Assembly (NCBI GenBank): GCA_023954855.1
Contig: JAGSGY010000059.1
Location: forward strand, 1-34,353
DNA: 34,353 nucleotides
Origin: Pseudomonadota bacterium
Lineage (GTDB): Bacteria; Myxococcota_A; UBA796; GCA-2862545
Reading direction: 5' to 3'
Shown here in pieces: positions 1,214 through 2,485 of the stretch (within the stretch, counting starts at the first letter, position 1; the number at the start of each line of letters is the position of its first letter). The position numbers and the translations under genes were made by a program. A model generated the notes under the pieces. That model was given only the letters and a program-made list of their open reading frames with translations, had not been told where the DNA came from and ran no database searches.

Positions 1214-1504
1214 CTAGGGCTTGGGCGCCTTATGAGCGCGGCGAATCCAGAAGAAGCCCGTCTCGGGGTCTCCGAGCCAGTCGATGTCGAAGTCACCGAT
1301 GCGCTTGTGGTCAAGCGGGCTCACGACAACCTCGACGCCACCGAGCTCGAAGACCACGTCGCTATCGGAAGGTGCATCCAGCACCAGCCCCAGCTCGGGG
1401 CAGCCGTGTCAACCGAGGCCACGGTCCTGTAGGCGCGCGACCTTTCCGGGATGGCGACCGAGGGCGGCACGAATGGCGGCAGCTGCGGAAGGGTGGATGG
1501 TCAT
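1214..1504 (-). CDS. HesB/IscA-like protein with in-frame TGA; candidate selenoprotein
   Basis: Reading through one TGA (codon 32, 1411-1409) from the ATG at 1504 to the TAG at 1216-1214 gives 96 residues with an unbroken HesB/IscA-type pattern. There is a short N-terminal helix, then Gly-Leu-Gly-U32-His-Gly-Cys35, then a Leu-Gly-Leu-Val-Leu-Asp strand, an Asp-Val-Val-Phe-Glu turn, a Gly-Val-Glu-Val-Val-Val strand, and Phe-Asp-Ile-Asp ahead of a Gly-Phe-Phe-Trp end. The TGA falls where HesB-family proteins carry their first conserved Cys, and HesB-like proteins are a known bacterial and archaeal selenoprotein family. The C-terminal Cys-x-Cys of true IscA scaffolds is absent, so Fe-S scaffold activity is doubtful and a redox role is possible. 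It starts 27 nt after purC ends, probably co-transcribed; its own ribosome-binding site is weak (GGACGG). Alternatives are a nonsense mutation or a base error at a TGC or TGT codon. Confidence 0.75.
1367..1391 (-). promoter_or_regulatory. SECIS-like hairpin downstream of the TGA
   Basis: On the minus strand GGTGC (1385-1381) pairs perfectly with GCACC (1375-1371) around the five-base loop TGGAT (1380-1376). The stem can extend through a two-base bulge, GGGG (1391-1388) against TTCC (1370-1367), using two G-C and two G-U pairs. The loop begins 28 nt after the TGA and has G at its second and third positions. Known bacterial SECIS elements have a small apical loop with a G in the first two positions, about 16-37 nt after the UGA; this fits. 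A second hairpin (GCCCC-GAGCT-GGGGC, 1401-1387) lies only 12 nt from the TGA and could compete. Confidence 0.6.
1409..1411 (-). other. in-frame TGA, putative selenocysteine codon (U32)
   Basis: This triplet, TGA on the minus strand, is the only stop in an otherwise intact HesB/IscA-like frame. It aligns with the first conserved Cys of the family, and codons on both sides keep family similarity. The next residues are His-Gly-Cys, giving a UxxC arrangement. A conventional gene caller would stop here and lose the gene. Confidence 0.65.
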
Positions 1505-1531: not shown

Positions 1532-2485
1532 CTAGACAGCCAGTGCCTCGTACACCGTCTCCGCGACGTCCCGGGCCGGCGGCACAAAGGGGCGTCCGAG
1601 CAGGCGTTCATGCAGTCGGCAGTACACTTCGGCGAGATCCAGGCGAACATCGTCGGGGAAGTGCGGGATCTCGCCTTCGCCCATGTAGCCCTGGCCGATC
1701 AGCCACTGACGGATGTTCTCCTTGTCGAGCATCGCCTGAGGTTCACCAGCGGCGAAGCGCGCGTCGAACTCGCTGGCGATCCAGTACCGGCTCGAGTCGG
1801 CGGTGTGGATCTCGTCGATCAAGATCAGCTCGCCATCGATGAGGCCCATCTCGTACTTGGTGTCGACCAGGATGAGTCCCTGCTCGGCGGCGAGGGCTTC
1901 GCCGCGCAGGAACAGCTTGCGGGCGACGTCGTAGGCCTTGTCCAGCACCGCCTCGCTCACGAGACCGCGCTCCAAGATGACCCGACGGCTGATCGGCTCG
2001 TCGTGCACGCCAATCTCGGCCTTGGTCGAGGGGGTGATGATGATGTCGTCGAGGCGTTGGTCCTTGCGGATGCCCTCGGGAAGGGGAACCTCGTAGACCC
2101 CGTGCCGATCGGCCTCGACATCGCGCCACAGCGAGCCGGTCACGTGGCGACGAACGACGATCTCGATCGGCAGCGCGTCGGCCTTGCGCACTCGCACAAT
2201 GTTCGGATGCGGCACCTCGATGAGGTGGTTCGCACAGATGTCCGCGGTCTGCGCGAAGGCGTTGACGGCGATGGCGTTGAGAATGGCTCCCTTGCAGGGA
2301 ATCGAGGTGAGCACCACGTCGAAGGCTGAGAGGCGGTCGCTGGTGATCATGACGATCTCGTCGTCGCCGATGAACAGGTCGCGGACCTTGCCCTTGTAGT
2401 GCTTGCCCAGGCCGCCGAGACGCTCCGCGTCCACGGAGACGAAGTTGCTGTGCAGGTGGCGGGCCAGTTCTTCTCGTAGCGTCAT
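1532..2485 (-). CDS. purC: phosphoribosylaminoimidazole-succinocarboxamide synthase (SAICAR synthetase)
   Basis: A 317-residue cytoplasmic enzyme of purine synthesis that joins CAIR and aspartate, using ATP, to make SAICAR. Family marks include the N-terminal nucleotide-binding segment Gly-Lys-Val-Arg-Asp-Leu, the Thr-Ser-Asp-Arg-Leu-Ser-Ala-Phe-Asp block, Arg-Arg-His-Val-Thr-Gly-Ser, Leu-Ile-Leu-Val-Asp-Thr-Lys-Tyr-Glu, and the Ile-Asp-Glu-Ile-His-Thr-Ala-Asp-Ser-Ser-Arg catalytic segment. The length matches the longer SAICAR synthetases (about 300 residues) rather than the short E. coli type. The ATG at 2485 has GAGG six bases upstream. No other purine gene is in the window; the HesB-like gene follows after 27 nt. 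Confidence 0.96.
   Translation of the reverse strand: MTLREELARHLHSNFVSVDAERLGGLGKHYKGKVRDLFIGDDEIVMITSDRLSAFDVVLTSIPCKGAILNAIAVNAFAQTADICANHLIEVPHPNIVRVRKADALPIEIVVRRHVTGSLWRDVEADRHGVYEVPLPEGIRKDQRLDDIIITPSTKAEIGVHDEPISRRVILERGLVSEAVLDKAYDVARKLFLRGEALAAEQGLILVDTKYEMGLIDGELILIDEIHTADSSRYWIASEFDARFAAGEPQAMLDKENIRQWLIGQGYMGEGEIPHFPDDVRLDLAEVYCRLHERLLGRPFVPPARDVAETVYEALAV

Follow-up and report, generated by a model that had tools for sequence, protein, structure and literature searches.

The HesB-like selenoproteins form an established family (PMC1088965, PMC1794560, PMC13188914), as the earlier note on this DNA had stated, and their tabulated motif is UxGP (PMC13188914). The member from M. maripaludis was found by mutagenesis and 75Se labelling; its biochemical function is unclear (PMC11097638). 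Two curated models represent the family, TIGR01911 (HesB_rel_seleno) and NF038090 (IscA_HesB_Se). Other described systems suited for comparison are the A-type Fe-S carriers IscA, SufA, and ErpA (PF01521 and TIGR00049) and the DsrR-type IscA-fold protein (PDB 2k4z). DsrR is not known to carry the cluster cysteines, and its role lies elsewhere than in Fe-S assembly.

The window (i.e., the whole stretch of 34,353 nucleotides analyzed here) belongs to a draft genome of 6.1 Mb in 178 contigs. It encodes a predicted protein that shares with the HesB-like selenoproteins an IscA-type sequence, selenocysteine (Sec) in the place of the first ligand Cys, and a bacterial SECIS element within the coding sequence, but departs from them in its sub-cutoff score, UHGC in place of UxGP, an extra codon after Sec, and the absence of a C-terminal Cys. 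With IscA, SufA, and ErpA it has the fold and overall sequence in common, whereas, of the three ligand Cys residues of such carriers (one central and two in the C-terminal tail), the first is replaced by Sec and the C-terminal ones are missing, and its scores fall under the Pfam and TIGR00049 cutoffs. Its model also has the same fold as the DsrR-type protein (match E value, 6e-4).

Against NF038090, the protein scored 21.3 bits (cutoff, 85), and a TIGR01911 scan of it gave no match. The eight Sec relatives scanned reached 30 to 70 bits and were also under the cutoff for HesB-like selenoproteins; all nine order-level members matched NF038090. Most relatives outside the window's subclade carry UGGP. 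As expected of a bacterial selenoprotein gene, the in-frame UGA is conserved in homologs and aligned to Cys in others. The protein shares descent with Sec proteins of the UGGP type and is separate from ordinary Cys IscA. Because the curated cutoffs and UxGP were missed but descent is shared with the UGGP type, we classified the protein as a variant of the HesB-like selenoproteins. The HesB/IscA-like selenoprotein identity proposed earlier was supported, with two qualifications: the IscA C-terminal Cys pair is lacking, and this divergent branch falls under the curated selenoprotein cutoffs. The family itself is already known. What is new is a branch that scores far under the curated models, without UxGP or any Cys at the C terminus, in which the third residue past Sec is Cys (UHGC).

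The interrupted frame and its homologs

The features of the locus, all on the minus strand, are as follows.

1214..1504, minus strand: predicted HesB/IscA-like selenoprotein gene (ATG at 1504-1502, TAG at 1216-1214, 96 codons, one in-frame TGA)
1409..1411, minus strand: putative Sec codon 32 (UGA), aligned with the first cluster-ligand Cys of IscA; all 20 extracted Sec homologs have it in this column
1406..1408, minus strand: extra codon (His33) after Sec, confined in the alignments to this genus (two members) and giving U-x-x-C
1400..1402, minus strand: Cys35, proposed relocated partner of Sec32, from the Cys pattern among Sec homologs
1387..1401, minus strand: weaker second hairpin, GCCCC-GAGCU-GGGGC, between the UGA and the SECIS hairpin (78% of cells paired, 9 sequences)
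1371..1385, minus strand: predicted SECIS apical hairpin, GGUGC-UGGAU-GCACC, from conserved pairing, covariation, and folding energy
1532..2485, minus strand: purC-like SAICAR synthetase gene (Pfam PF01259; E value, 1.5e-57)

The minus-strand translation of 1504..1214 is MTIHPSAAAAIRAALGRHPGKVARLQDRGLG*HGCPELGLVLDAPSDSDVVFELGGVEVVVSPLDHKRIGDFDIDWLGDPETGFFWIRRAHKAPKP*, in which the TGA of codon 32 (1411-1409) is the sole internal stop; the frame contains neither a further stop nor a frameshift. This agrees with the earlier description of a 96-residue frame split by a single in-frame TGA. An alignment with E. coli IscA (E value, 2e-4) places codon 32 opposite the first conserved cluster-ligand Cys, the position to which the TGA had been assigned. 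With TGA taken as a stop, the ORF list holds no ORF of at least 80 amino acids in this frame, so ordinary gene calling would miss the gene, as had been anticipated. The purC-like gene ends 27 nucleotides before the ATG of the selenoprotein gene on the same strand, and the two are possibly cotranscribed; a phosphoesterase gene in convergent orientation has its end at 1213, abutting the selenoprotein stop. No recurrent neighbor gene was found in ten relatives, and no pathway was supported by the neighborhood.

The Sec set comprised 20 sequences from 19 genomes (the window's genome and 18 others), and in every sequence the TGA occupies a single shared alignment column. A search of the order (63 genomes) returned 15 matches, 9 with exactly one in-frame TGA and 6 of the Cys IscA type with none. 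In the phylum (379 genomes), the 19 best-scoring places (at least 43 bits) all contained an in-frame TGA, and nearly all places below 43 bits had none. The class search revealed a second TGA copy in genome G015; the two TGA codons listed for G055 are the Sec codon and the terminal stop. Many homologs share the Sec context G(Y/F)GUGGPRLGLALDEP. A search for related loci with four alignment rows gave three relatives with names, Deltaproteobacteria bacterium M1803 (68% identity), HyVt-553, and Myxococcota bacterium MAG.533; these match genomes already in the homolog searches. In the phylogenetic tree, the 20 Sec rows and one Cys row formed a 100/100 group apart from ordinary Cys IscA, and the window's protein grouped with the UGGP-type Sec proteins. 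The Cys row (L056, GCSGPRLGFALESP) represents a Cys homolog from the same branch, of the kind that the earlier note had sought in relatives.

Outside the window's subclade, most of the Sec HesB-like genes (L046-L055) have Cys as their last codon, followed immediately by a TGA stop. Because the sequence past this codon pair is not conserved, that TGA looks like a true stop.

Comparison with the same-genus copy gave dN and dS values of 0.20 and 1.10 before the TGA and 0.25 and 0.57 after it, pointing to purifying selection on both halves of the frame. That copy, from an independent genome, has the identical TGA, and its SECIS region is nearly the same. The codon might instead be an ordinary nonsense change in a pseudogene or a miscalled TGC/TGT, a concern raised by the draft state of the genome (178 contigs). 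Against this stand the same TGA at one column in 18 other genomes, the selection on both sides of it, the absence of a second stop or frameshift, and the covariation in the SECIS hairpin described below; this explanation is largely refuted already, and we regard it as very improbable. The earlier argument that a random change would rarely hit this codon is strengthened by the column common to the 20 Sec sequences and by the constraint on both halves, and the scattered stops in homologs that would have spoken against recoding were not seen.

SECIS hairpin and selenocysteine machinery

The predicted SECIS hairpin has a 5-nucleotide loop (UGGAU) with G at loop position 2, a 5-bp stem, and 28 nucleotides from the UGA to the loop. 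It starts 23 nucleotides after the UGA, compared with 20 in relatives without the extra codon. The published bacterial model describes a loop of 3 to 9 nucleotides, a stem of 4 to 16 bp, a G in the first two loop positions, a distance of 16 to 37 nucleotides from the UGA, and an MFE of -7.5 or lower (PMC13188914). Our element agrees with this model, in the case of energy through the 47-nucleotide element (-19.6 kcal/mol), since the bare 15-nucleotide hairpin (-7.4 kcal/mol; z, -3.9) narrowly misses the limit.

All five stem pairs were formed in 20 of 20 Sec homologs and in 0 of 31 Cys homologs; when synonymous codons were redrawn, the null mean was 1.4 and the maximum was 6 of 20. Two positions change on both sides of the stem (C-G or U-A at one and U-A, G-C, or C-G at the other). 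Of the codons that specify the same residue, all 13 in the segment directly following the TGA were identical, versus 25 of 43 elsewhere (p, 0.003), and this freezing of silent sites over the SECIS stretch is a sign of RNA-level constraint. The second hairpin at 1387..1401 is possibly part of the SECIS element. An Rfam scan of the window detected no RNA family.

Sec decoding had been predicted to need selA, selB, selC, and selD, and a genome search found all four: selA (506 bits), selB (300 bits; with the SECIS-binding winged helices PF09106 and PF09107), selD (253 bits), and a tRNA-Sec with anticodon TCA. SelA was present in 9 of 9 TGA genomes of the order, but also in 52 of 63 overall, which makes its co-occurrence weak evidence. 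The selD gene (L012:304-2556) has a pyridine-nucleotide-disulfide oxidoreductase fused at its N terminus and contains Cys (CGGCAAK), not Sec.

Four further candidate genes in the genome have a TGA at known Sec-type motifs (WUTSC, WUPSC, GSYSUPYC, and CVVU). The first three (L125, L126, and L127, on contigs C65, C144, and C95, respectively) are of the thioredoxin/peroxiredoxin type with one in-frame TGA each, and the fourth (L128, contig C87:1713-1916) is SelW-like, with its TGA at the U of the motif. WUTSC and WUPSC lie downstream of DxDxDG-repeat stretches of secreted-type proteins; the GSYSUPYC gene presumably resembles those of deiodinase-like proteins.

Stop codons were counted for 138 long genes in other contigs (TAG, 65; TGA, 66; TAA, 7) and for the 24 main genes of the window (TAG, 15; TGA, 5; TAA, 4). 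TAG stops are unusually common given the 66% GC content of the genome. Avoidance of TGA as a stop, considered from the 5 of 24 in the window, was rejected on the basis of the counts in other contigs. Because TGA is a common true stop, recoding appears to be codon specific rather than genome-wide. A reading of the UGA as another amino acid, through a genome-wide code change or simple read-through, would account for the open frame and nothing more; the use of TGA to end 66 of 138 long genes and the presence of a Sec-specific tRNA, SelB, and a SECIS hairpin leave it hardly any probability.

UGA codon 32 of 1504..1214 is, judging from sequence, very probably decoded as selenocysteine, as the earlier note proposed on the basis of the frame. 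The computed features are the frame, the conserved UGA column, a SECIS hairpin with covariation, the full Sec machinery, and a predicted IscA fold; actual Sec insertion into the window's protein is inferred. SelB and tRNA-Sec would insert Sec at codon 32 of the 96-residue protein, guided by the hairpin within the coding sequence, with 28 nucleotides between the UGA and the hairpin loop.

Predicted fold, proposed partner cysteine, and possible role

An AlphaFold model of the protein (pLDDT, 92.5) has the IscA fold, with IscA 1r94 as the best match. Four of the 20 Sec homologs (the window's protein, L024, L026, and L028) lack a C-terminal Cys, and the other 16 keep at least one. A Cys at U+2 or U+3 occurs in precisely these four (UHGC, UHGC, UGC, and UAC) and in 0 of the 16 others; a Cys near Sec and a C-terminal Cys are therefore mutually exclusive across the set. 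If rows were independent, the chance of this pattern would be 1 in 4,845 (20 choose 4), but the rows are not independent; on the tree, which has several weak nodes, two or three switches of Cys position are needed.

This either-or pattern suggests a Sec-Cys pair with a relocatable Cys. Sec and one Cys would form a selenol/thiol pair, the partner Cys being C-terminal in most relatives and two or three residues past Sec in this genus and two other lineages. For the window protein, such a redox-pair role is a tentative assignment. Equally tentative is the broader proposal that HesB-like selenoproteins act via a Sec-Cys pair whose partner, in this order, moved more than once from the tail to U+2 or U+3 (UxC or UxxC), leaving the tail without Cys. 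The U-x-x-C motif could bind metal instead of forming a selenenylsulfide.

With Sec decoding unchanged, the protein might also be a true carrier of Fe-S or another metal, with Sec standing in for the first ligand Cys and adjusting the stability or redox potential of the cluster. The predicted fold, the location of Sec exactly at the first cluster ligand, and the distant relationship to IscA discussed for the HesB-like selenoprotein of M. maripaludis (PMC11097638) favor this role, but the CGCGESF-type tail of the Cys homologs is absent from all aligned Sec homologs, the window protein has no C-terminal Cys at all, and two ordinary Cys IscA-type proteins are encoded in the same genome. We consider a carrier role unlikely. 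Most likely, the protein is a small redox or metal-handling selenoprotein on the IscA fold rather than a standard three-Cys Fe-S carrier.

The locus adds a selenoprotein branch in the Myxococcota/Deltaproteobacteria lineage that is out of reach of the curated models scanned, and public annotation is consequently likely to omit or split its genes. No function has been established for HesB-like selenoproteins; the alternative placements of the partner Cys offer a direct, testable hint as to which residues cooperate. If the proposed pairing is true, the HesB-like selenoprotein family would consist of selenol/thiol redox proteins built on the IscA fold.
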